Assembly (NCBI GenBank): GCA_937921595.1
Contig: CAKZTD010000077.1
Span: 1-37,906 of the forward strand
Direction of reading: 5' to 3'
From: an uncultured Saprospiraceae bacterium
Lineage (GTDB): Bacteria > Bacteroidota > Bacteroidia > Chitinophagales > Saprospiraceae
DNA: 37,906 bases
Shown piece after piece: positions 2,064-29,900 of the stretch (position 1 is the stretch's first letter; each line of letters begins with the position of its first letter). The notes beneath the pieces were generated by a model that made no database searches, was not told the DNA's origin, and saw nothing but the letters and a program-made list of their open reading frames with translations. The position numbers and the translations under genes are program-made.

Positions 2064-2792
2064 CTACCCATTCACTTCAATCACCGACAAATAATACTTC
2101 ACCAATCCAGCAGTATTTTTTACATTTAATTTTTGAAGGAGATTACGACGATGCGTATCAACAGTCCTTGGACTTATAAAAAGCGCATCCGCAATTTCTT
2201 TATTGGTTAATTCCTCAGCGATAAATTTTAGTATTTCAAATTCACGATCAGTGATCGGTAAAGAAAGATCAGAAATCCGGTGTGAAACCCCTCTTGCTTT
2301 TTTATTTACAGTCGCCAATTTTTTAATATCTACTTCACTAGAAAAATAAACATTGCCATGATAAACCACCATGATACTATTGGCCAATTCCTGAATGGAA
2401 GTATTTTTCATCACATAACCTGTCACTCCTGCTTCAACCATTTTAGATACACAATCTATATCCGCTTTATCAGAAAGACATAAGACTTTCGCATCTGGAT
2501 CATGAGCCTTAATCTGCTGAGTCGCCTCTGCTCCAGACATATCAGATAAGCTGCAATTCACCAAAATAATATCAAATTTTTCTTTTTGAGAAAGTTCAAC
2601 TAAGTCTTTTCCTGTTTCAACATCCTGAACAATATCTATAAAATCAAAAGCTTGAAGTAATTGAACTACACCTTTCCGAAAGAGTCGGTTGTGATCCGCC
2701 ATTGCTACTTTAATTTTCGCAGATGCTGGTTTATCCATAATATTATTCATGCCGGTTTGAAATGATTTGTTTATAAAAATTAAAGGGATCAT
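2064..2792 (-). CDS. LuxR/NarL-type transcriptional regulator with degenerate receiver domain (curli locus)
   Basis: 242 aa. Residues about 26-145 form a response-regulator receiver domain; about 175-238 form a LuxR-type helix-turn-helix (LPITDREFEILKFIAEEL, then TNKEIADALFISPRTVDTH). The expected phosphoacceptor Asp is Asn79 (LVNCSLSDMSG, codon AAT read directly), and the usual acidic pair DD is D33-H34; the conserved Lys (GYVMKN) remains. This predicts a receiver that is not phosphorylated in the normal way, as in atypical receivers of the LuxR class that includes CsgD. The gene begins 30 bp after the PD40 lipoprotein gene and closes the csgF-csgG-lipoprotein run, so it is the obvious candidate for curli control. 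Start uncertain: Met15 or Met19 would also leave the receiver intact. No Shine-Dalgarno sequence decides it. Confidence 0.85.
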   Translation of the reverse strand: MIPLIFINKSFQTGMNNIMDKPASAKIKVAMADHNRLFRKGVVQLLQAFDFIDIVQDVETGKDLVELSQKEKFDIILVNCSLSDMSGAEATQQIKAHDPDAKVLCLSDKADIDCVSKMVEAGVTGYVMKNTSIQELANSIMVVYHGNVYFSSEVDIKKLATVNKKARGVSHRISDLSLPITDREFEILKFIAEELTNKEIADALFISPRTVDTHRRNLLQKLNVKNTAGLVKYYLSVIEVNG

Positions 2793-4381: not shown

Positions 4382-5770
4382 TTATTTTTTACCAAAATGA
4401 ATACGCAATCCCAAACGCGATCGCCAAATTTGGTCTCCGTATTTACCTTGTTCCAACACATCAAAATCATCTTTAAAAAAGTAAACCTGCTCTCCTGAAA
4501 ATTGAAGTTCAATTTTATCGTTTAGCATAACCTGAAACCCTACACCCAAATCGGCGAAAAAATGATTATCCTCTCGAAAGGCATACGGAAGTGTACTTAC
4601 ATTGGAAAGCAATCCGCCACCAGCATAAACAATTGGACTCATTTTTTTATTGGGAATAAAAGTCCATTGAAGGTGAGTGTTCAGATAGAGAATATCCCAT
4701 GAAAAAATTTCTTTGCTAGCTACTGTATTGTATCCAAAGTTGGTACTCAAAGACAATGAAGGACTTAAATGTTGGTTGAGACCTATTTCAGCTCCAGGCT
4801 TTATCATGGAGTTGGGATAATCTCCATTTAAAAAAGATCCAGTTAATGCTATTTGAATAGAAGACTTCATTCTTTGGTCTATGCTTTTGGTTCCAAAAAC
4901 ATCAATTTGCGCCATTTCCTGAGTTTCTTTTTTAAATTCCTGAATCGCCAACTTCGCTGTTTTATCTTCCGGATCCGCTTGCCATAATCCATCCATCAAT
5001 CCTTCCATCACTAAAGAATAAACGGCTTTTTCAATAGCTTCCGTAACTGCCAAATCAGCTGGTTCATTATATGTGATTCCTGTTTCAAATTCCAAGAGTC
5101 TTTTAAAACTCACGTACCGAAAAATTCCAACATCTAATTTTTGAGAAAGCAAAGTCTTAGATACATAAACACTTTTAAGAATTTTTCCACTTTGAGTAGA
5201 GATCGCTCTTAGGCAAACCGTTACCCGATCTTGACGATATTGTCCTGATCCACCAGCGCCAAAATACCTAACACCTGCCCCACCAGATATTACATTTGCA
5301 TCATAAGAAACGATTCCTCCTTCAAGGATAATTCCAGCAAATAATAAAGGGCGAATTAAAGGTTTATTTTTTTCATCATCTTTTGAATACTGAATTTTAC
5401 TGGACCGAATAATCTTACGCTCGTTTAATAAATTTCCAATATTTTCACGTTCAATTGGAACGAACCATCCAGAATCTTCCAATGCTTCAATGAGCAAACT
5501 TGTTGCACCTTGAGTTACTGCTGTAGACCAACTTGCTCCATTCTCTGTAGGTTTATATTGTCCCGTTTGATCTCTGAATTTATAGACTCCGACAACCATC
5601 GGTTCTTTAGTTTTAGGCAATCTTTTTAGTGCTCTGTTAAAAGACGTTTTTTCAGCAATCCGAGCAGGAGTTGTTTTCATCGGTTGATTCAAATACGCGT
5701 TGCAGCTGCTCAATAAGAACAGAATTGCTATCGGCAAGGCATAACGACTTATAGCTTTAAGTAAGGTCAT
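4382..5770 (-). CDS. csgG: CsgG, curli secretion channel lipoprotein, with C-terminal barrel-like extension
   Basis: 462 aa; E. coli CsgG is about 277. Lipobox LLSSC gives Cys23. Residues about 52-266 match CsgG throughout: VVGVYKFRDQTGQYKP, ALEDSGWFVPIEREN, IGNLLNERKIIR, GGAGVRYFG, RLLEFETGITYNEP and the closing GLW. CsgG forms the nonameric outer-membrane pore that exports curlins. In E. coli the pore is narrowed by Tyr51, Asn55 and Phe56; the equivalent stretch here is KPTENGASWSTAV, so the Phe becomes Trp81 and the Tyr is not kept (alignment by eye). After a charged linker (about 267-300), residues 303-462 form about eight alternating amphipathic strands ending LRIHFGKK, like a small outer-membrane barrel. 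Downstream of csgF by 142 bp and 35 bp upstream of the PD40 lipoprotein gene. Confidence 0.95.
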   Translation of the reverse strand: MTLLKAISRYALPIAILFLLSSCNAYLNQPMKTTPARIAEKTSFNRALKRLPKTKEPMVVGVYKFRDQTGQYKPTENGASWSTAVTQGATSLLIEALEDSGWFVPIERENIGNLLNERKIIRSSKIQYSKDDEKNKPLIRPLLFAGIILEGGIVSYDANVISGGAGVRYFGAGGSGQYRQDRVTVCLRAISTQSGKILKSVYVSKTLLSQKLDVGIFRYVSFKRLLEFETGITYNEPADLAVTEAIEKAVYSLVMEGLMDGLWQADPEDKTAKLAIQEFKKETQEMAQIDVFGTKSIDQRMKSSIQIALTGSFLNGDYPNSMIKPGAEIGLNQHLSPSLSLSTNFGYNTVASKEIFSWDILYLNTHLQWTFIPNKKMSPIVYAGGGLLSNVSTLPYAFREDNHFFADLGVGFQVMLNDKIELQFSGEQVYFFKDDFDVLEQGKYGDQIWRSRLGLRIHFGKK

Positions 5771-5912
5771 TTACCAAAGTTTAATTTTGATTAATAAGAT
5801 GGTTTACCGAATCTCATTCAGAAGAATTACGAACGGCAAAACTAGTTAAACGGGGGAATTTCCCAAATTTCAAGTTGTATCACAAGAGCCATACAAGTAT
5901 GCACTTATATTG

Positions 5913-6347
5913 TTACAAATAGGGCACAACGACAAGTGTTTGGTCACCAGTGGAAGTATCTAATATTGAAATAGATAATCCCTCAACGGTAGGCGTTACA
6001 TCAATTTGAAAGTCGCCAATCACATAGTTACCTTCACTGAGTCCTCCTTCACCAAATTGGTCTCCAACTAATTCTCTAGAGATTTGATTTAAGATTTGTC
6101 GGTTTAGATTATCTGCAAAATCATCAATAGGATTACGACTAAAACGATCAAAGCGATCTTCGTCTTCGTCTTCCTCAATCGTGTTTTGAGAATTAGCAGA
6201 ATTAAGTAACCATTGGTAATTGAAAACTTCCCCACCGAAGGCGGGATTCTTGGGTTTGTAGACAAAGTCTTGAGCAAACAAGAAAGAGTTACAAAAGAGA
6301 GTTAAGGCAATGCACAGAGCAATGCGAATGAAATGTAATGATTTCAT
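5913..6347 (-). CDS. csgF: CsgF, curli assembly factor
   Basis: 144 aa with a signal peptide ending near FLFAQ. The mature N-terminus FVYKPKNPAFGGEVFNYQWLL matches CsgF, whose N-terminal segment with the NPxFGG motif inserts in the CsgG pore and whose C-terminal part sits at the cell surface and couples secretion to nucleation. LLNSANSQN follows, as in E. coli CsgF. An Asp/Glu-rich stretch (EEDEDEDRFDRF, about residues 58-69) is an acidic insertion not seen in E. coli. The rest, with RQILNQIS and ISILDTSTGDQTLVV, fits the C-terminal beta part. csgG follows 142 bp later in the same direction. The 5' side (234 bp to csgE) has an inverted repeat at 6454-6476 and lacks the curlin promoter element. 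Confidence 0.92.
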   Translation of the reverse strand: MKSLHFIRIALCIALTLFCNSFLFAQDFVYKPKNPAFGGEVFNYQWLLNSANSQNTIEEDEDEDRFDRFSRNPIDDFADNLNRQILNQISRELVGDQFGEGGLSEGNYVIGDFQIDVTPTVEGLSISILDTSTGDQTLVVVPYL

Positions 6348-6580: not shown

Positions 6581-7396
6581 TTAAAAAATTCCATCTCCAA
6601 TTTGATCACCTTCTTCTATCTGATTTTTAGTGTCCGTCAATTTTTTAATTCTATGAGCAGTTACACCAATAGCACTCTCTGACAACTCTTCGATCACATC
6701 ATATCGAGCTTGTAAAAAACGCTTGAAGACTATTTGATCATTCACCATAATGCGAATAATTGTTGATCGTCCACGTCCAGGATCTTCTGCGATATTGATT
6801 GTAAAATCAGTAGCACCTCGAGGTGGAATCCAATTATTATAAAACAGTTCGTAAAAGTCTCGACCTGCTTTGGTTTTAGTCTGATCTATTATGAGACCAT
6901 CAATTTCAACTACTGAAGGAGAATCTCTTTTCTCTTTTCTTTTTTCTTTTTCGTCCAAGACAATCGGGACTGCTTCTCTTTGCGTCCAAGTATCTTTCTG
7001 TTGATCAATAATTACTTTTCCAGATTTTATTTTTACTTCAACAGATAGTGTATCTCGTTGATCAATTTTTATAGTAAATAAAGTTTTTGGGACGTTGCCT
7101 TCTAGGACAAAATCATTTCGTTTTGTTTTAAAGACATAAGGCTTTTCCGGGATTCCAGATTTACCTTCAACGAGGACATAATAGGATAGATTATCTGGAA
7201 TATTTCTTACACTATCACTTACGGTATAAGTACCTGTCACAGTATAGTGGTTCTCACTTTCTTCAACCTCTAAGCCAATACTACCTTGGTTAATTTGTGC
7301 CTGTAAAGTACTAATTATCAACAAGATACAACAGCATACAAGAAAACATTTTCCTTTCAGGTAGTAATACCTTGTACTTTTTGGATTAGATTTCAT
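6581..7396 (-). CDS. csgE: CsgE with an N-terminal CsgC/CsgH-like domain
   Basis: 271 aa from the ATG at 7396; a TTG at 7435 would add 13 residues and overlap the upstream stop (TTGA), but the ATG puts the signal peptide (KGKCFLVCCCILLIISTLQAQ region) at the N-terminus. About residues 160-271 are CsgE: VVEIDGLIIDQTKTKAGRDFYELF, then NNWI, then IMVNDQIVFKRFLQARYD; E. coli CsgE is only 129 aa. CsgE is the periplasmic adaptor that caps CsgG and delivers CsgA. About residues 37-137 are an extra beta-rich domain (NHYTVTGTYTV, LSYYVLVEGKSG, TLFTIKIDQRDTLSVEVKI) that by eye follows the strand order of CsgC/CsgH, the periplasmic amyloid inhibitors. A charged linker DEKEKRKEKRD joins them. The CsgE call is firm; the CsgC/H call is inference. 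Confidence 0.9.
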   Translation of the reverse strand: MKSNPKSTRYYYLKGKCFLVCCCILLIISTLQAQINQGSIGLEVEESENHYTVTGTYTVSDSVRNIPDNLSYYVLVEGKSGIPEKPYVFKTKRNDFVLEGNVPKTLFTIKIDQRDTLSVEVKIKSGKVIIDQQKDTWTQREAVPIVLDEKEKRKEKRDSPSVVEIDGLIIDQTKTKAGRDFYELFYNNWIPPRGATDFTINIAEDPGRGRSTIIRIMVNDQIVFKRFLQARYDVIEELSESAIGVTAHRIKKLTDTKNQIEEGDQIGDGIF

Positions 7397-7431
7397 ACCC
7401 TTATCACTCGTTAAAAAATTGTAAACCTTTA

Positions 7432-8001
7432 TCAAAGTTTAATAACGGTCATTCTCATGTTCGAACCACGTTGGAAAATCATTACATCCATATTATTTTG
7501 GTTCGACTCAATCAAATCCATATTGTTTAAATCACCTTCCTGATATAATAAAATATCACTCTGATTAATATTTTCGAATTCCGCATGAATGGTATTCATA
7601 TCGCCGTCCTGAATAATTGCAAGATTGTTTTGTACACCATTAGAAACTCCGTCAATCAAATTAAGATTTCCTTTTTGTATCAGTACCGCATTTTGCTGAT
7701 CTCCATCCTGATGAAACATTAATTGATTGCCTTCACCATTTTGAGTAGCAATGACTTTATTGGCGTCTCCCTTTTGAAAAACATCACTTGTATTATCGTC
7801 TCCGACTTGAGAAAGTTTGGTGAGATTGTTATTTAAATTAAGATACAAATAGTCTCTTTCTTCGTCTAATAAATCAGAAGTGGTTAGATCTATTTCTGTA
7901 TCGAAAGTAACATCCCCTTGAGCAGAAAGAAAAATTGCTGAGGACAACAATATGGATAGAACCATGCACAAAGTGCAGAGAGGTTTGTAAGATGTCAACA
8001 T
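7432..8001 (-). CDS. CsgB-like minor curlin
   Basis: 189 aa with signal peptide ending IFLSAQ. From about residue 55 it shows curlin half-repeats of about 11 residues with QxGxxN turns: LSQVGDDNTSDVFQKGDANKV, ATQNGEGNQLMFHQDGDQQN, VLIQKGNLN, IIQDGDMNT, LLYQEGDLNN and IFQRGSNMR. Residues between the Q and N positions are more hydrophobic (ILLY, MDVMIF) than in the CsgA-like proteins, and repeat register is looser. It ends 4 bp inside the longest csgE frame and 35 bp before the preferred csgE ATG, so the two are surely cotranscribed. The pairing with csgE and its distinct repeats suggest the nucleator role of CsgB, but sequence alone does not prove it. A conserved promoter element lies at 8066-8140. 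Confidence 0.8.
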   Translation of the reverse strand: MLTSYKPLCTLCMVLSILLSSAIFLSAQGDVTFDTEIDLTTSDLLDEERDYLYLNLNNNLTKLSQVGDDNTSDVFQKGDANKVIATQNGEGNQLMFHQDGDQQNAVLIQKGNLNLIDGVSNGVQNNLAIIQDGDMNTIHAEFENINQSDILLYQEGDLNNMDLIESNQNNMDVMIFQRGSNMRMTVIKL

Positions 8002-8065: not shown

Positions 8066-8140
8066 CAAAGGTAAGCATAAGTGTCCTAATATTATATAGG
8101 TAAAAAAGCGTATTTTCAAAAGGAAATTTTAACATTTAAA
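8066..8140 (-). promoter_or_regulatory. Curlin promoter element A (csgB-like/csgE unit)
   Basis: The minus strand has the -7 element TACCTTTG (8073-8066), an exact TAnnTTTG match. On the plus strand TAAAAAAGCGTATTTT begins at 8101, 28 bp away from the -7 element. This core is shared with elements B-E. The leader to the ATG at 8001 is about 60 nt. The rest of the 8002-8477 gap is AT-rich and holds only a hairpin (8344-8369) and a perfect 18-bp palindrome (8393-8410). Confidence 0.65.
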
Positions 8141-8343
8141 GTCTGCTAGCACTTTGTTATTTTTATGCTAGAAATATTGAATTACAATATTTTTAAATTG
8201 ATTTGCTTAAGAATATCCTAAGTTTAATAATTATTGTGTTAGCTTTTTTTAAAAGAATCTGATTGATTCAAATTTCAACTTCTCAAAAGATTTAAAATTA
8301 ATAACAAAGTCTCTCGGAAAAAAAGTTTTCAAAATAAAAAATC

Positions 8344-8369
8344 CTGCCCACTTCTCTCCAAGCAGGCAG
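8344..8369 (-). terminator. Hairpin terminator of the small basic curlin gene
   Basis: Arms CTGCC / GGCAG and CTT / AAG, split by a CA/CA mismatch, with a CTCTCC loop; on the minus strand it is followed by ATTTTTTATTTT. It lies about 110 bp after the stop at 8478. The lower stem is the same as in the 10548 terminator. Confidence 0.65.
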
Positions 8370-8392
8370 AAAATAATTACAACCCCTATAGT

Positions 8393-8410
8393 CTATAATT
8401 TCAATTATAG
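8393..8410. repeat. Short perfect palindrome CTATAATT-TC-AATTATAG
   Basis: Perfect 8-bp arms with a 2-bp spacer in the 3' region of the small basic curlin gene, between its stop and its terminator hairpin. It may be an RNA stem-loop or a protein-binding site; no known motif recognised. Confidence 0.4.
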
Positions 8411-8477
8411 ATTTTAGTTTTTAAATTATCGTTTTTTTACAGATTATAATATGGAATCTGCTTGCTTTGTCTTTAGA

Positions 8478-8912
8478 CTAATTACCTTTCGATTGGTTCA
8501 GGATGATCGTACTCCCTTTTCCTTTTTGTGTAACCTTGCTTGTATTTCCCTTCCCTTTCTGATTTACAACAATCGTATTTCTATCACCTGATTGCATATT
8601 TTTACTATTGTTATTTTTGCCTTCTTGTGACGTTACTATAGTGTTTTTATTCCCAGCCTGATCATGAACAGTTTGATGACCTGAGCCTTTTTGAATTATT
8701 GTACTGGAGTATCCCTTTCCGGATTGAATGTTTACCGCAATGTTTGGCGCATTAGTTTTCGCTGGAATCGTATCTTTCCCCATTACATTTTTTTTCTTTT
8801 TTTCTATTGAAACTCTTTTTTCAGAGACTCCAGATACCGTCGTATCAGATTGCGCATGAGCAAAACATACCGTTCCTAAGAAAATGATAAAAAGCATTAA
8901 ATTATTTCTCAT
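8478..8912 (-). CDS. Small basic curlin-repeat protein
   Basis: 144 aa with signal peptide ending CFAHAQ. Residues about 22-55 are a Lys-rich, probably disordered segment (EKKKKN). From about 57 there are curlin half-repeats: NIQSGKGYSSTIIQKGSGHQT, HDQAGNKNTIVTSQEGKNNN, MQSGDRNTIVVNQKGKGNT and VTQKGKGSTIILNQ. I count about 20 Lys/Arg and 7 Asp/Glu in the mature protein, the reverse of the CsgA-like neighbours. It has its own conserved promoter element (9089-9175) and a hairpin terminator (8344-8369), so it is a single-gene unit. It may be a second nucleator or a charge partner of the major curlins; that is inference. Confidence 0.75.
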   Translation of the reverse strand: MRNNLMLFIIFLGTVCFAHAQSDTTVSGVSEKRVSIEKKKKNVMGKDTIPAKTNAPNIAVNIQSGKGYSSTIIQKGSGHQTVHDQAGNKNTIVTSQEGKNNNSKNMQSGDRNTIVVNQKGKGNTSKVTQKGKGSTIILNQSKGN

Positions 8913-9088
8913 GAAAATTGATTTTAATTCTTTAACAATCTACTAATAAAACATTACTCTAAAAGGCATGCTTTTTAGTAAAATTAGTTTCAGCTTATTT
9001 AAAGGATGGTAAAAGAACGGGAGATAAAATGAATTCAGCTTTAGTAAATGTTTCCTCCTTGCAAGTAAGTATGTTTATAAGTCTTTCT

Positions 9089-9200
9089 CCAATTTACTGC
9101 ATTTTCATTATATTCCCTAGTTAGAAAAAGCGTATATTTTCAAAATACTTTTTTAACAGTAGAGCCGTGTAAAACACTTAGTTTTGTAAAAAATGGTACG
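9089..9200 (-). promoter_or_regulatory. Curlin promoter element B (small basic curlin)
   Basis: The core TAGAAAAAGCGTATAT begins at 9122 on the plus strand. 26 bp away is a -7-like TAAATTGG (minus strand, 9096-9089), one mismatch from TAnnTTTG. Farther out, GTAAAAAATGGTACGC (from 9186) resembles the second motif of elements D and E. The -7 neighbourhood (CAATTTACYGCATTTT) is shared with element C. The rest of the 8913-9396 gap shows only the stem at 9287-9356. Confidence 0.6.
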
Positions 9201-9286
9201 CTAAAAAACTTAGAACTTGTTAAGTTAGCATACACTTTTCTGATAAAATTTTTATTTTTAATGATTTACTCCATGTAACTGAAAAG

Positions 9287-9356
9287 AATGAGCAAATACT
9301 AAGGAAGCCTATTCCTAAGCTTGCTTCTATTACATTTTGGAGGGTATTCACTCATT
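9287..9356 (-). repeat. Imperfect long stem downstream of CsgA-like copy 3
   Basis: Outer arms AATGAG-ca-AATAC (9287-9299) and GTATT-ca-CTCATT (9344-9356) pair, with an inner AGGAA/TTCCT stem at about 9302-9315. It lies 40 bp after the stop at 9397. On the minus strand it is followed by CTTTTC, a weak T-tract, so it could be the terminator of this gene. Confidence 0.4.
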
Positions 9357-9396
9357 TATGAATTCACTCATTCTCTCATTTTCAAACTAACCTAAA

Positions 9397-10245
9397 TTAT
9401 AAATCCGATTGATTTACCGTATTTGAATTACCATTTCCGATTTGATTGGTATCATTATAATGATTAGTTCCATCTTGCTTAATCGTCGCGATATTCAGAT
9501 CTCCTTCCTGACAGTTATGACTTCTATGCTCAACTCCTTCCTGCAATGTTGAAGCTACATTATAATTTCCATCTTGGATATCCTTTGCCCAATTCATATC
9601 TCCAACCTGATCAATATCACTATTATTTCCATTCCCTGGCATAGAATAAATGCCTTGCCAAGTCACCGCCAAATTACCATCACCGGTCTGATCTTGAGTG
9701 GTCACGTTGTCGCTATTATAAGCACCAAATGAATCATAGCCTTGAAAATTATAAGCACTATTTTCTACACCATTTTGATTTTGAGTGTTCTTATTATTAT
9801 CCCCAAATTGATCATTCCGAGCATAGTTACCAGGGCCATTTTGTTGACTACGCTGCAATTGTTTATTAATATTACCATTTCCTTCTTGAGTATTCTCCTG
9901 AGTGTTGTGATCGAAGAACTGACGTTGACGATTCACATTTCCATCACCAGTTTGGATACTCATTTGAGAATTATATTCAGCGTTGCCAGCTCCTTGTTTT
10001 TGAAAATTTGAATTATCCATTCCATCTTGAATATTCGACTGGTCATTGTAATCTCCATTTTGGATTTGAACTGAATTATTCCAATCACCCAACTGATCAG
10101 AATCTGCAAGATTTGAATTTCCAATTTGATCCACCGTTACAACATTATTATTACCAGTCGATGTTACATTGCTTTCATTCTTTTGAGCAGTTGCTAAAAA
10201 AACTACTAAGAAGAGAGAGCAGTTTAGAATTAATATTTTTTTCAT
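9397..10245 (-). CDS. CsgA-like major curlin, copy 3 (282 aa)
   Basis: Signal peptide MKKILILNCSLFLVVFLATAQ. The mature protein is nearly all curlin half-repeats with period 11 and a QxGxxN turn: VDQIGNSNLADSDQLGDWNN, IQNGDYNDQSNIQDGMDN and so on, about 22-23 half-repeats against 10 in E. coli CsgA. The repeat run is broken near the middle by NGPGNYARNDQFG and again by an insertion YDSFGAYNSDNV. The C-terminus NQIGNGNSNTVNQSDL is shared with the other two CsgA-like copies. It lacks the DNGAGSG segment of the other two and has one Cys (HNCQEG). Expected to be exported by CsgG and to form beta-solenoid amyloid at the surface. Own promoter element at 10371-10450. Confidence 0.88.
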   Translation of the reverse strand: MKKILILNCSLFLVVFLATAQKNESNVTSTGNNNVVTVDQIGNSNLADSDQLGDWNNSVQIQNGDYNDQSNIQDGMDNSNFQKQGAGNAEYNSQMSIQTGDGNVNRQRQFFDHNTQENTQEGNGNINKQLQRSQQNGPGNYARNDQFGDNNKNTQNQNGVENSAYNFQGYDSFGAYNSDNVTTQDQTGDGNLAVTWQGIYSMPGNGNNSDIDQVGDMNWAKDIQDGNYNVASTLQEGVEHRSHNCQEGDLNIATIKQDGTNHYNDTNQIGNGNSNTVNQSDL

Positions 10246-10370
10246 GAGTAAATGTTTTTACTGGGGTTGAAGAGAAAATAAAAAGCATCCTGAGTTTAGG
10301 GACTCAGTAAAATGGATTACAGTTTTGGGAGGTAAACAAAATCAATAGATAAAAAAACTTTGTTCGTCTT

Positions 10371-10450
10371 TCAATTTACCGCATTTTAAAAATACATCCT
10401 ATTTCAAAAAGCACATTTTTTTAAAATACTGTTTTTAGAGTAGGACTAAG
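10371..10450 (-). promoter_or_regulatory. Curlin promoter element C (CsgA-like copy 3)
   Basis: Most diverged copy: TTTCAAAAAGCACATTTT (plus strand, from 10402) replaces the AAAAAGCGTATT core. The -7-like TAAATTGA (minus strand, 10378-10371) lies 25 bp away, and the flank CAATTTACCGCATTTT matches element B. The rest of the 10246-10658 gap holds only the hairpin at 10548-10585. Confidence 0.5.
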
Positions 10451-10547
10451 CAAATTACTTAGATCTAATAAAAAAGTAAGTATAAAAACTTAGGAAGATT
10501 AAAACCTAGGATCTAGACATCAACTATACTAGTAGTACCAAAAACAA

Positions 10548-10585
10548 TTCTGCCCACTTTTGTTTTACAACAAAAGCAGGCAGAA
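10548..10585 (-). terminator. Strong hairpin terminator of CsgA-like copy 2
   Basis: Arms TTCTGCC / GGCAGAA (7 bp), a CA/CA mismatch, then CTTTTGTT / AACAAAAG (8 bp) with a TTAC loop. On the minus strand TTGTTTTTGG follows. It lies about 75 bp past the stop at 10659. Confidence 0.75.
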
Positions 10586-10658
10586 TAATTAATGGTATTT
10601 AGTAGCTCTGTTTTTAATATCTCTTGAAAGAAGAAACATTAAATAAAACTAATCTCAA

Positions 10659-11528
10659 TTATAGATCTGATTGATTTACAGTATTTGTATTTCCGTTTCC
10701 AATTTGATCAGAAGTACTAAAGTGATCCGTACCATCTTGAGTAATCGTAGCTGTGTTCATATCACCTGATTGGTAATTATAACTATTGTGATCATTACCT
10801 ACCTGAGAAGTAGTAGCAGTGTTCATATCACCATACTGATTATCATGTGCATCATTAGTATCTCCATCCTGATAAATATCACTCATATTAGCATCACCAG
10901 ATTGGTAAGTATATGCATGATCTCCAACACCATTCTGAACTTGAGTAGTAGTATTACCGTCACCATAAGAGTAGTTTTCAGCCCAACTTCCTCCAGCACC
11001 ATCAGGTCCACTACTTGTCCACTGGTAAGTAGTATTACCAACTCCATGTTGATCATTAAATTGGTAATTATTATCAAATCGTTGTTGCTGCTCACTAGTA
11101 TTACCATCACCTAACTGATGATTCCCTTGATAGTTATACTCAGCATATCCAACTCCTTGTTGTTGAATATTCGTATTACCATTACCTTCTTGACCACTCC
11201 ATTGGTTGTTATAATCTCCATTTTGTAATTGAGAAGAATTATTACCGTCACCATCTTGATAATTTGTAGCATAGTTACCAAGACCAGAACCTGCACCATT
11301 ATCACCCATTTGATCAATAGTTGCGATATTAGTTGATCCCATTTGATCAGAATCAGCTGTGTTAGAATCACCAATTTGATTAACGTCAGTGTCGTTATCA
11401 GATCCAATTTGATCTACAGTTACTCCATTGTAATTACCAGTTGAATTTACATCACTGTTGTTTTTTTGCGCAGTTGCCATAAATGCAACGAATACAAATG
11501 CGAAAGATAGAATTAATACTTTTTTCAT
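10659..11528 (-). CDS. CsgA-like major curlin, copy 2 (289 aa)
   Basis: Signal peptide MKKVLILSFAFVFVAFMATAQ, then 11-residue curlin half-repeats through the whole length (VDQIGSDNDTDVNQIGDSNT, YQSGDMNTATITQDGTDH). A Gly-rich break DNGAGSGLGN lies near residue 75 and a second break SSGPDGAGGSWAENY near residue 170, both at the same place as in the 302-aa copy. The conserved QRFDNNYQ sits before the second break. By eye count the mature chain has about 36 acidic and 2 basic residues, so it is strongly anionic. The C-terminus QIGNGNTNTVNQSDL is shared with copies 1 and 3. Single-gene unit: promoter element at 11671-11800 and strong hairpin at 10548-10585. Confidence 0.9.
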   Translation of the reverse strand: MKKVLILSFAFVFVAFMATAQKNNSDVNSTGNYNGVTVDQIGSDNDTDVNQIGDSNTADSDQMGSTNIATIDQMGDNGAGSGLGNYATNYQDGDGNNSSQLQNGDYNNQWSGQEGNGNTNIQQQGVGYAEYNYQGNHQLGDGNTSEQQQRFDNNYQFNDQHGVGNTTYQWTSSGPDGAGGSWAENYSYGDGNTTTQVQNGVGDHAYTYQSGDANMSDIYQDGDTNDAHDNQYGDMNTATTSQVGNDHNSYNYQSGDMNTATITQDGTDHFSTSDQIGNGNTNTVNQSDL

Positions 11529-11670
11529 TATAAATGTTTTTTAGAGGTTAAAAAGAAAATTCGAAATTTATTCTACTATAGTTATATAGAATAATTTAAA
11601 AAACGATTTGAGGGTTTTAGATTTTGAAAATCTAATAGGTTAATAGCAGAGTACTCAATTACCACGATAG

Positions 11671-11800
11671 CAAATATAGATAGTATGGTTCCTTTATCCT
11701 AGGTAGAAAAAGCGTATTCTGGAATTATACATTTTTACTCGTAGGCTTATGTAATTATGCGTAGATGGAAATTTAATATTCGGTAAAAATGCGTAGAGTG
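11671..11800 (-). promoter_or_regulatory. Curlin promoter element D (CsgA-like copy 2)
   Basis: Best copy. Exact -7 TATATTTG on the minus strand (11678-11671). The core TAGAAAAAGCGTATTC begins at 11704, 26 bp away, followed by AATTATACATTTTTA, nearly identical to element E. Two further GCGTAG motifs occur at 11759 and 11791, the latter in GTAAAAATGCGTAG. No -33 TTG is evident, as expected for an activator-dependent promoter. The rest of the 11529-11887 gap holds the terminator at 11815-11848. Confidence 0.7.
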
Positions 11801-11814
11801 CTTTAAGAATAATC

Positions 11815-11848
11815 AAAAAAACCTGCTCTGTCTTTCAACAAAGCAGGT
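11815..11848 (-). terminator. Rho-independent terminator of CsgA-like copy 1
   Basis: ACCTGCT / AGCAGGT arms plus a TGT / ACA inner stem; on the minus strand a run of T (complement of 11815-11820) follows directly. It lies 40 bp after the stop at 11888. Confidence 0.85.
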
Positions 11849-11887
11849 ACATTTCAGCAGTTTTTATTTATTACTTTTCTTAATTAT

Positions 11888-12796
11888 TTAGAATCCACCA
11901 GATTGGTTTACAGTGTTAGAATTTCCATTACCAATTTGATTAGTATTACTATTATGCTCCGCTCCATACTGGTTAACTGTAGTTATATTTGAATCACCAC
12001 TTTGATAAGTATCAATAGAATGATTATTGCCATCTTGGTAATTATAACTTTGGTTTGCATTACCATCTTGATGAGTTTTGGCAACATTAAGATCACCCAT
12101 TTGAACATCATAAGCCATGTTACCATCTCCACCTTCTTGTCTCATATCACTGTCATTCTCATTACCTACTTGATAAGTATCAGCTATATCATTCTCACCA
12201 TCTTGCCATTGCTTGGTCTTATTTCTATTACCAATAGTAACATTAGAAGCACTACTACCTGGAGGGCCATTCGGTCCACTTCTCGTGAATTGATCGGTAG
12301 AATTTCTATTCCCTTCTTGATAATTGTATTGGTAATTTTGGTCGAAACGCTGATCCTGAACATTCTTATTTCTGTTTCCAATTTGAGTATTGTGCTGATA
12401 ATTATCTTCCGCATAACCAACACCTTGGTTTTGAGTATTCTTGTTTCTATTTCCATCTTGGAAACTTTCTTGCCAGTTGCGATCTCCATTTTGAGTTTGA
12501 CCAGATTGGTTTTTATTTCCATCCTGCCAGTTTTGAGCAAAGTTGTCAATACCGCTTCCGGCACCATTGTCTCCCATTTGATCTATAGTAGAAGTATTCT
12601 CTCCTCCATATTGATCGGAGTCGGCAGTGTTCGCAGTTCCAACTTGTTCAACATCAGTTGAATTTTCTAAACCTGCTTGGTCGACAGTTACCGTATTACC
12701 GTTTCCTGTAGATTGAACTAAACTTGTGTTTTTCTGAGCACTTGCAAAAAAAGCAAGCAGTGAAAAAGTGCATAAAAAGAGAAATGTTTTTTTCAT
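11888..12796 (-). CDS. CsgA-like major curlin, copy 1 (302 aa)
   Basis: Signal peptide MKKTFLFLCTFSLLAFFASAQ. About 24-25 curlin half-repeats of 11 residues follow (VDQAGLENSTDVEQVGTANT, SDQYGGENTSTIDQMGDN and so on), the longest of the three CsgA-like copies. Breaks at DNGAGSGIDN (about residue 75) and RSGPNGPPGSSASN (about residue 170) match those of the 289-aa copy. It carries more Arg/Lys at turn positions (GNRNKN) than copy 2. The C-terminus NQIGNGNSNTVNQSGGF is the shared cap with a two-residue change. Single-gene unit with promoter element at 12883-13000 and a textbook terminator at 11815-11848. The regular 33-nt period in the DNA comes from these repeats. Confidence 0.9.
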   Translation of the reverse strand: MKKTFLFLCTFSLLAFFASAQKNTSLVQSTGNGNTVTVDQAGLENSTDVEQVGTANTADSDQYGGENTSTIDQMGDNGAGSGIDNFAQNWQDGNKNQSGQTQNGDRNWQESFQDGNRNKNTQNQGVGYAEDNYQHNTQIGNRNKNVQDQRFDQNYQYNYQEGNRNSTDQFTRSGPNGPPGSSASNVTIGNRNKTKQWQDGENDIADTYQVGNENDSDMRQEGGDGNMAYDVQMGDLNVAKTHQDGNANQSYNYQDGNNHSIDTYQSGDSNITTVNQYGAEHNSNTNQIGNGNSNTVNQSGGF

Positions 12797-12882
12797 GTGA
12801 TTTTTATTAAAGGGGTTAAAAATTTAAATTCGCGTAGACTTGTTTATCCTAAGTACAATGCGATCCATATAGTTTTAAAAAT

Positions 12883-13000
12883 TAAATATAAAAAGTAAAA
12901 CCCTATTCACTCTTTCTAAAAAAGCGTATTCTTGAATTATACATTTTTAGTAGTAGAGCTATGTATTTTCTCGCAAACCATAAGTAAAAACGCGTAGTTC
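12883..13000 (-). promoter_or_regulatory. Curlin promoter element E (CsgA-like copy 1)
   Basis: The core TAAAAAAGCGTATTCT begins at 12917 on the plus strand, followed by GAATTATACATTTTTAG as in element D. A -7-like TATATTTA (minus strand, 12890-12883) is one mismatch from TAnnTTTG at 26 bp. A second motif GTAAAAACGCGTAG starts at 12983. The outer part approaches the divergent thioredoxin promoter at 13024. Confidence 0.65.
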
Positions 13001-26920: not shown

Positions 26921-29900
26921 CTACCGCATCACCACTACCCTTTTCACCATCACTCCTAAGTCTGTACTGACTTCTAATAAATACATTCCCGGATTTAAAT
27001 GGCTCGTATTTATTTCATTAGTCAAATTTCTGGCAGTAGATTCCATAAGCAATTCACCACTTATTGAAAATAGTTTTAGCGTTTCAATTTCTATATTTTT
27101 TGTTGTCAGATATAAAATATCATCAACAGGATTTGGAGCAACTTGAATATATTCATCCCAGTTTATATCATTGGTCGCCACCGTCTCTTCCAGTATCATG
27201 GAAGTCTCCATCGGCACCACAGGGATTTCTTCTCCGAGATTATTAATCATCAAAACATTTGTGATATTAAAATTAATTTCGACCGCATCATCATCCCGGT
27301 TATCATTTTCTAACCGCAATAAAACATCATCCTCTATCGTGATGTACAGTATTCCTAATTGTCCAAAACCATTCATTGCTGTTCCATCGATTCTTGTAAT
27401 TCCAACATCGATTACTCCAGGGCTAATGAATGTTTTTTGAATCGAAATCATATCATTATTCAAAGTTCCTAACCAACCGTCAACACCAATGGAAGCACTT
27501 CCAGGAACAATCACTGTAGAATCGTATTCCAAAGTAAAAGCCAAACCATAAACATTCTCTGCTTCGTTTCCTGATTCACCTAAGATAATTGGTAAAGCAT
27601 AACTTTCATTTTCAATCAAAGTATCCGGCTCCACATAAAAAGGTACCGTAACTGTCACCCCACTTTGTGGGTAATTGGGTCCGAATAATTGCGTATCATC
27701 ATCGCCAGTAAAATTGTGCATATCTCCCCAATTCTGAGTAATCCCTAAAGTATCATCTGAATTAATAATTCCATTTCCATCACAGTCAATGAATTTATAG
27801 TTCACACCATCAGGTGTACTTTGAGACCAATTATCAGCAGACTGTCCTATCCAATTCAAACTAGCATTCGACCTTACAGGACCTACAGAATCAAAGGCTA
27901 AACCAATGTTCAACAGATCAAGGTTATTTACTACATAACTCGAATCTGTATCTCCCGGCCAAACACAACCTTGATCTACGACGACTTCAAATGTTGCTTC
28001 ATCTGTACATCCATTTACTTCTGTTACCGTAACTGAAAAAACAGTAGTTTCTAAAACAGATGCTATTGGGTTTTCACAGTTAGTGCAGTCTAAAAAATCA
28101 GCCGGAGCCCATTCATAACTAATTCCCGAAGGGTTTGGTAAATCAAGGGAAAGTTCAATAGCTCCATCTCTGCAAATCGTATCAGAATAAGAGTCAGTTA
28201 TTAAAATTTCAGGAATCACATCAAGACAAATTTCATCTTCAAAAGCACAACCATCAGGAGCAGTATAATTCAAAGTAAAACATTCGCCTGGTAATGGAAT
28301 AACATCAAAACAACTTTCCGTTGTGGTTCCTGAAGGCCAGGTCCAAAGATATGCTCCAGGAAGGTTAAAAGGATCTGCACAAAGTAAAACTGATTCTCCT
28401 TCGCAAACAGTTATTGGTCCGAGATCTACTAAGACTGGAAATTCAGTAACTTCTATTTGCACAGAAGCTGACTCTGAAAAACCATTTATATCTTCAACAG
28501 TCACTGTATAGATCGCAGTGAAATTTGGCATTGCAAATGGGGTAGTACTATTTGGATCGTCCAAAGAAATTGAAGGTGACCAGCTAACACTTACCGCATT
28601 GGGAGCAATGACTTCTAACTGGACACTATCCCCTTGGCAAATCATTGTATCATTTGAAATAAATTCTATGATATCATATACGACCACATCAGTACTTGAG
28701 TTTGCAGCACATCCATATTGATCAATAATATCTAAAGTATATTGACCTTCAAGTCCTGAATTTGCATTCGGGATTACCGCATTACAATCTGAAGATTGAA
28801 AGCCATTGGGTCCAGTCCAACTTACTGAACTTGCATTGGGTACATTACAATAAAAAACAATATCCTGTCCAGCATAAACAGGACTATTTGAAAATTCTAA
28901 TAAATTAAAATCCAGATAAGATTGAACATTAAAATCAAGGTATCCTATATCAATACAGCCATCGGCTTCGGTAACAGTGACCGAATAAAAAGTCTCTTCT
29001 CCAAGACCAACCGTTGCTATTGGATTTGGGCAATCATAACAAGAAAGATTTCCAGTAGACCATTCATAAGTCACCGCATTTGGAGCAACCACTTCCAATT
29101 GAGCTTGACTATTATCGCAGTAGGTTGTATCTCCTCCGATCAATTGTTCGATCGTTGTTCCTAATTCAACTTCTCCTTCTACTGTACATCCATTGGTATC
29201 AGTAACCGTGATACTATAAATTCCGGTTGCCAAATCATTAAGATCTTCTATTTGAAAACCAGTCGACCATTCATACAAATATGGAGGTGTACCTCCTGTA
29301 ACAGTCATATCTATTGAACCATTCTCAGTCTCTGTTGAGCATTGGACGTTAAAATCTAGGATTAATAGTGCTGGTTCATCGACTGTATAAAAATATTCTG
29401 ATGAACAATTATTACTATCCGTTACGATTACATTATAAACACCCGCAGTTATATTTATTCGATTTTGAGGATCACTTGTTCCAGGCAAATCCGCCCAATC
29501 ATAAGTATAAGGAGCCGTTCCACCATTTACAAAAAGATCAATTACTCCATTCGCTTCGCCAAAGCAAAGTACGTTCGCTACACTAGAATTAACAATTACC
29601 TGTGAAGATTCGTCCACTATAAAAAAATCTGTAGTAGAACAATCTGAAGCATCAGTAACCGTAACAGAATAAGTTCCAGCTTCAATATTATCTATGTCTT
29701 CAGTTGCCGAAGCCGTAGCATCTGACCATATAAAAGTATACGGAGGTTGTCCTCCAATAACCGTAAGGTCAATCGCTCCATCATTCCCAAAAGCACAACT
29801 TATATTTTGCACAACACCATCTAGGGCCAAAGTATTAACATCAAGATTAGTTACTTCAATCTCGTCCAAGGAGTAACAACCATTTACCACATTCGTTATG

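Follow-up and report, generated by a model that had tools for sequence, protein, structure and literature searches.

A common promoter element of five curlin-type genes in a Saprospiraceae bacterium, a putative operator of a NarL/FixJ-type regulator encoded in the same locus

Introduction

Curlin promoters of Enterobacteriales, such as that of csgBAC, are acted upon by CsgD, which is encoded in the csg region, whereas regulators of the NarL/NarP and FixJ type recognize operators such as the 7-2-7 site of NarL, TACCCCTAAAGGGGTA (PMC4549865, available in part). As far as the accessible part of a survey goes (PMC3521004), the Bacteroidetes genera examined lack csgD with the exception of Spirosoma, some of them contain up to six csgA/B homologs, and an alternative regulation has been suggested. 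For the switching on of curli in Bacteroidota, an operator of fixed spacing together with a regulator whose gene lies within or next to csg loci would be a direct candidate. Among the matches listed for open-access literature on curli in Bacteroidota or Flavobacterium combined with LuxR, response regulators or csgD, no such operator appeared in titles or abstract openings, and no open-access paper was found on curli and Saprospiraceae. Here, we describe an element at the five curlin-type promoters of an uncultured Saprospiraceae bacterium, located on contig C77 (CAKZTD010000077.1) of an 8.04-Mb genome consisting of 465 contigs; this contig, analyzed over its full 37,906 nucleotides, is referred to as the window. 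Sequence comparison makes it quite probable that the promoters are activated ones and the element their operator, bound by a dimeric NarL/FixJ-type regulator, which would most likely be the one encoded at 2064-2792 of the same locus.

Results and Discussion

An earlier note made from the letters of the window alone had claimed a five-copy element in front of the curlin-type genes, and all five copies were located at the places given. In the following list, spacing is the distance on the gene strand, the minus strand, between the T of TAC, with which the core begins, and the base that opens the -7-like box.

Promoter A, 8066..8139, minus strand: core TACGCTTTTT at 8112-8103; -7-like box TACCTTTG at 8073-8066; spacing 39; place of the outer dyad at 8139-8124 degenerate
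Promoter B, 9089..9161, minus strand: dyad TAC-N10-GTA at 9161-9146; core TACGCTTTTT at 9134-9125; -7-like box TAAATTGG at 9096-9089; spacing 38
Promoter C, 10371..10442, minus strand: dyad TAC-N10-GTA at 10442-10427; diverged core TGTGCTTTTT at 10415-10406; -7-like box TAAATTGA at 10378-10371; spacing 37
Promoter D, 11671..11795, minus strand: far half-site beginning at 11795; additional TACGCAT beginning at 11763; dyad at 11743-11728; core TACGCTTTTT at 11716-11707; -7-like box TATATTTG at 11678-11671; spacing 38
Promoter E, 12883..12996, minus strand: far half-site from 12996; dyad at 12955-12940; core TACGCTTTTT at 12928-12919; -7-like box TATATTTA at 12890-12883; spacing 38

The core is an exact TACGCTTTTT in four of the five promoters (A, B, D, and E), with TGTGCTTTTT in C being the only diverged copy. 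The fixed distance to the -7-like box, as described earlier, is confirmed (37-39 bp from the start of the core), although 27-29 bp rather than the 25-28 bp claimed separate the box from the 10-base core. Compared with the box TAnnTTTG, promoters A and D match exactly, B and E with one mismatch and C with two. In the boxes of B (9089-9096, TAAATTGG) and C (10371-10378, TAAATTGA), the TTG lies one base nearer than in TAnnTTTG, and both resemble the SM5 motif TAnnTTGY reported in PMC9723704 (available in part). Farther upstream, every promoter except A contains a TAC-N10-GTA dyad that begins 27 bp ahead of the core. The motif CTACGC[AG]TTTTTAC, announced for the outer regions of D and E, is present at both (TAC at 11795 and 12996, respectively); these far half-sites lie 79 bp (D) and 68 bp (E) upstream of the core, and D contains an additional one at 47 bp. 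The unit AAAAA(N)GCGTA had been proposed as a direct-repeat operator, a view that we replace: the arrangement is better described by NarL-type half-sites, namely the TAC-N10-GTA dyad and TACGC 27 bp on, with the direct copies being an extra of D and E only. Dyad and TACGC half-site (TGTGC in C) also give rise to an inverted AAAAA/TTTTT pair in B-E.

The promoters themselves carry no TTG within the stretch scanned for a -33 element (five out of five), as had been noted earlier. The element lies immediately upstream of a promoter without -33 TTG, and its position therefore suits an activator. That it is instead bound by a repressor, or by a modulator of promoters with another primary signal, for instance one of the E. 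coli type TTGAAA-17-TATAAT in A, is in our estimation highly improbable. Promoter A does contain an 11 of 12 match to the sigma-70 hexamers at 8119-8091 that overlaps the element, and NarL itself is described as repressing at some sites (PMC4549865, available in part). However, the sigma-70 scan of the region lists 21 sites compared to 33.7 in shuffles and none at the cores of the other four promoters; since it finds fewer sites than shuffled sequence does, the site in A was set aside.

The similarity of the five upstream regions was compared with that of shuffled sequence. The motif search that the earlier note had asked for returned a best shared 12-mer with three mismatches, against five in the best of 120 shuffles; for 14-mers the numbers were five and eight (best shuffle), and the best shared 10-mer alone was weaker, with 3 of 120 shuffles being equally good. 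Exact TACGCNTTTTT occurs four times in the window where 0.12 copies are expected. TACGC located 38-39 bp upstream of a -7 box with at most one mismatch is found in four of five curlin promoters, a number equaled in none of 300 shuffles, and on both strands of the 37.9-kb window this combination is restricted to A, B, D, and E; TACG in place of TACGC yields one additional match, at 27977.

On the level of the 8-Mb genome, exact ATACGCTTTTT was counted 25 times, compared to six for the pattern read backward. The four curlin copies are intergenic and each has a -7-like box at 38-39 bp, whereas 17 of the other 21 lie inside open reading frames (ORFs; simple-script calls) and four outside. The extended pattern GTAT-N9-ATACGCTTTTT has three exact matches, all of them at this locus, and in this sense the element is specific to this locus in the genome. 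With two mismatches allowed, 53 matches stand against 39 in the backward control. Among 395 genomes of the class, five contain the exact pattern, our genome three times and four others once each; while this class-wide level equals that of the backward control (five matches), more than one match is found in our genome only. Three further candidates were rejected. A ATACGCTTTTT on contig C324, the only non-curlin copy with a box at 38 bp, lies inside an ORF of 606 amino acids, the sole one-mismatch match to the extended pattern (C395) lies inside a gene, and the pair AAAAAGCGTAT-N20-ATACGCTTTTT, located behind a gene on contig C362 (L037, G000:C362:7953-7994), is a T-tailed inverted repeat that resembles a terminator and probably is one.

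An alignment of the five regions anchored at the core bears on a further explanation, according to which the copies are functionless remnants of a promoter duplication that accompanied the duplication of the curlin genes. Next to the core, B/C and D/E are more alike than other pairs, as would be expected of sister copies. Between -30 and +15, all-pair identity amounts to 0.55-0.71, compared to 0.26-0.39 in the remaining 13 bins, which extend to 120 bp, and the eight pairs from different sister groups have a mean identity of 0.72 over the core bin, a value that is partly high by construction because the alignment is anchored there, which does not apply to the bins from -30 to 0. On both sides, the sequence has thus diverged to the background level, but the core and the spacing between it and the -7 box were kept, also between A, B/C, and D/E, and the identical spacing is found again in other genomes. 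We therefore regard such remnants as very unlikely.

The operator reading was further examined in relatives. The test set comprised 17 promoters, namely the csgA promoters adjacent to a related NarL/FixJ-type regulator and three each from locus L124 and genome G031, with one box mismatch allowed and the start of the G031 C40 gene placed nine codons later; L155 and L172 (TACG at 39 and 40 bp) were left out since no regulator is visible on their pieces. In 9 of these 17, TACG is located 38-39 bp upstream of the box, whereas shuffles gave a mean of 0.25 and a maximum of two (0 of 300 as good). Of all two-offset classes from 20 to 110 bp, 38-39 is the best, the best non-overlapping class (84-85) reaching six. 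Curlin promoters of loci without the regulator show TACG at this distance in 1 of 99 cases, compared to 1.32 expected over all offsets; for the non-curlin genes located in regulator loci, the count was 3 of 112 (1.76 expected). A canonical -7 box is found in six of the 11 csgA promoters that adjoin a regulator gene, and in five of the six it is preceded by T[AG]CG at 37-40 bp; the background, drawn from all intergenic TAnnTTTG sites of the retrieved loci and thus including the tested ones, is 13 of 490. When the upstream regions of 99 curlin genes were pooled and searched for dyads, both TAC-N10-GTA (17 vs. 6.3) and GTA-N10-TAC (20 vs. 6.6) were no more than modestly enriched.

Individual relatives resemble the window to different degrees. 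The csgA promoter of genome G632 has TACG exactly 38 bp before TACCTTTG and, like D and E, a far motif, TACGTATTTTTAC. Locus L124, in which the regulator gene follows csgG and a lipoprotein gene, encodes three curlins, two of which are preceded by an inverted AAAAGGCGTA-N10-TACGCCTTTT or AAAAAGCGTA-N10-TACGCCTTTC situated 38 bp upstream of TAATTTTA or TATCTTTA. In G031, where the regulator is found on a separate contig, two of the three curlin loci have, at their first gene, TACGCCTTTG and TACGTCAAAT 39 bp upstream of CATCTTTG. Five Saprospiraceae csgA promoters with adjacent regulator (L040, L041, L048, L100, and L186) share with the window the T[AG]CG half-site 38-39 bp before TAnnTTTG. They differ from it in that most of their proximal boxes are TAC-N9/10-GTA dyads containing TACGG or TACGT and that one csgA promoter is served, whereas the TACGC half-sites of the window serve five units. 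Where no regulator of this kind was detected in csg loci of Saprospiraceae (L095-L099, L101), the csgA upstream regions have another block in common, CTACCANNTTTAGGGTA, which contains TAC-N10-GTA and in L095 is positioned 54 bp before TACATTTG.

The proposed common regulator matches PF00072 (69.5 bits) and PF00196 (69.8 bits), both above cut-off, and its matches in the PDB include VraR, DevR, and NarL. By model it is not CsgD, as it reaches 56.7 bits against the NCBIfam equivalog NF007505 with its cut-off of 250; the full-length models of NarL (98.4 of 250 bits) and FixJ (61.8 of 255) are likewise missed by far. In its receiver, Asn replaces the phosphorylated Asp and His the second acidic residue, while all 24 other aligned regulators retain the Asp, among them L048, which is without the acidic pair. 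The domain is probably a pseudo-receiver, judging from these residues. As CsgD and VpsT are counted among the pseudo-receivers in a review (PMC12632262, available in part), these substitutions suggest that the protein may work without phosphorylation.

In a survey of 399 genomes of the family, with seven candidates scored per genome, matches to the regulator with E ≤ 1e-55 were confined to our genome and G632 (48% identity), where the gene adjoins csgA. In a tree of 25 regulators, one clade (99/97) unites ten csg-linked regulators with those of L124 and of G031, a genome that bears curli; the trees omit L188, L191, and L194, which the ORF filter had missed, three of the eight paralogs of our genome and other than the one of its second csg locus. 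Ten regions around regulator homologs, selected from the matches in the first 148 relatives, contained no curlin ORF by repeat count.

The eight further related regulators of the genome (E ≤ 1e-12) raise the question of which protein binds. The closest one (40%) belongs to a second csg locus of the same genome (L040, G000:C92:14000-33999), in which the regulator gene directly precedes csgA and which contains two curlin-type genes, a csgE-like gene, csgF and a csgG-like gene. Its csgA promoter has TGCG 38 bp upstream of TATATTTG, a TACGGGATTCCCTTA dyad farther out and also ATGCGTGTTTTACGTAT upstream. A real operator bound by another protein, such as the regulator of this second locus or another NarL-type regulator of the genome, would be compatible with the fact that recognition helices are very alike across the family. 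However, the second-locus promoter has boxes of the TGCGT and TACGG type and not TACGCTTTTT, and the helix TVDTHRRNLLQKL is common to the regulators of the window, L124, and G031, the latter two having curlin boxes of the TACGC type as well, though TVDTH also occurs in unlinked regulators. Altogether, we consider binding by another protein unlikely, and the regulator at 2064-2792 the better candidate. In window, L124, and G031, eight cores have TACG at the scored distance, of which seven read TACGC and one, that of G031 C40, TACGT, while regulators with TVETH go along with TACGG in L041, L048, L151, and L186, TACGT in L100 and TGCGT in L040. Since most unlinked regulators of the tree also have TVDTH, this pairing of helix and operator (TVDTH/TACGC, TVETH/TACGG) may be taken as a hint only.

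A number of observations weigh against a common, regulator-bound operator. Eight of the 17 promoters of the relatives miss the half-site at the scored distance (L040 with TGCG, L050, L051, L105, L110, L113, L124b, and G031_C7), and with TACGC in place of TACG only 3 of 17 pass. The spacing was taken from the window, but the test set was assembled after several of the relatives' promoters had been seen. A matrix built from the proximal boxes of nine relatives does not single out the sites of the window by sequence, where they rank 5, 6, and 15; window and relatives agree in half-site plus spacing. Looser patterns were uninformative. With one mismatch allowed, TACGCNTTTTT occurs seven times in the window compared to 4.56 expected, a number reached by 16 of 100 shuffles. 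Genome-wide, TACGCNTTTTTNNA shows no excess (seven vs. nine in the backward control), and TACGNNTTT-N28-32-TANNTTTG was found six times, two of them being A and D, vs. 13 in the control. Finally, when seven regulators of genus g61 were added to the tree, the clade (99/99) included g61 members, and in all ten g61 regulator loci (L202-L205, L207, L208, L211-L214; ten genomes of one genus) no curlin ORF was present within up to 1.5 kb on either side; the regulator lineage is accordingly not strictly linked to curli.

The locus is arranged on the minus strand of the window and contains five curlin-type genes, csgE, csgF, csgG, a PD40-type gene, and the response regulator gene.

NarL/FixJ-type response regulator, 2064..2792, minus strand: Response_reg and GerE domains; proposed common regulator
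csgF and csgG, 4382..6347, minus strand
csgE, 6581..7435, minus strand: PF10627; the ORF as listed shares four bases with curlin-type gene A
Curlin-type gene A, 7432..8001, minus strand: PF07012
Curlin-type gene B, 8478..8912, minus strand
Curlin-type gene C, 9397..10245, minus strand: Pfam score 18.7, below the cut-off of 20.7
Curlin-type gene D, 10659..11528, minus strand
Curlin-type gene E, 11888..12796, minus strand

The regulator gene lies downstream of csgG and the PD40-type gene in the same locus as csgE, csgF, and csgG. Terminator-like hairpins follow the curlin genes B (8342-8371), D (10547-10586), and E (11821-11848) on the gene strand, so that most curlins look like separate units; the same scan detected no terminator after curlin C and none between csgE and csgF. 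The three hairpins are also alike in sequence, with stems similar to CTGCTT/AGCAGG. As csgE follows curlin A without a gap, it should belong to the regulon. The csgF-csgG pair had been described as lacking the element, and indeed neither TACG nor GCGTA is present in the 233 nucleotides upstream of csgF, and csgF, csgG, and the regulator gene itself are without a copy. Since no terminator was found between csgE and csgF, csgF-csgG and the regulator gene could, nevertheless, be reached by read-through from promoter A, or else from a promoter of their own.

On this basis the following mechanism is proposed, in which we infer binding, activation, and start sites from the sequence comparisons. Assuming a -7 box at -12 to -5, the position reported for Flavobacterium psychrophilum (PMC9723704, available in part), the core would be placed at about -50 to -41 and the outer dyad at about -77 to -62. 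A dimer of the regulator would bind the TACGC half-site around 50 to 41 bp upstream of the transcription start and in addition the TAC-N10-GTA dyad starting 27 bp farther upstream. The bound regulator would then replace the missing -33 contact, which would enable RNA polymerase to use the weak -7 box. With a separate copy of the element at every curlin unit, one regulator could switch all five curlins together, including csgE via curlin A, whereas csgF, csgG and the regulator would depend on their own promoter or on read-through from promoter A. The earlier suggestion of one activator, namely the LuxR-type protein of the locus, is thereby backed as to the link between regulator and promoters by the comparison of relatives (9 of 17 vs. 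1 of 99), with binding and activation as its presumed part. The regulator would act in place of CsgD.

Comparison with known systems

It might be speculated that Saprospiraceae run their curli via a regulator lineage of their own in place of CsgD, that the operator keeps one constant distance to the -7 box, and that the half-sites vary according to the recognition helix, TVDTH being paired with TACGC and TVETH for the most part with TACGG. In the bacterium studied here, a pseudo-receiver beyond phosphorylation control, as in CsgD and VpsT, would in addition allow one protein to drive an array of five curlins. We put this wider picture forward as a tentative one, rather doubtful as a whole. The locus nevertheless provides a candidate curli regulator in a group reported mostly without the classical one, its fixed-spacing promoters are a ready test set for curli regulation, and the natural variation of half-site (TACGC vs. 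TACGG) and helix (Asp vs. Glu) allows DNA recognition to be read out in this regulator family.

Compared to the operators of NarL/NarP and FixJ, the TAC-N10-GTA dyads of B-E have the geometry of the NarL 7-2-7 site, whereas the promoter-proximal site of the window is a single TACGCTTTTT half-site with no clear second half. The likeness to CsgD and the csgBAC promoter of Enterobacteriales, as described in the accessible part of PMC3521004, lies in a protein with receiver and LuxR-type helix-turn-helix domain that is encoded in the csg region and acts, or in our case presumably acts, on curlin promoters. It differs from CsgD in that the window regulator stays under the cut-off of the CsgD model and that the element is positioned at five separate promoters, each with a -7-like box that is presumably of the Bacteroidota type.

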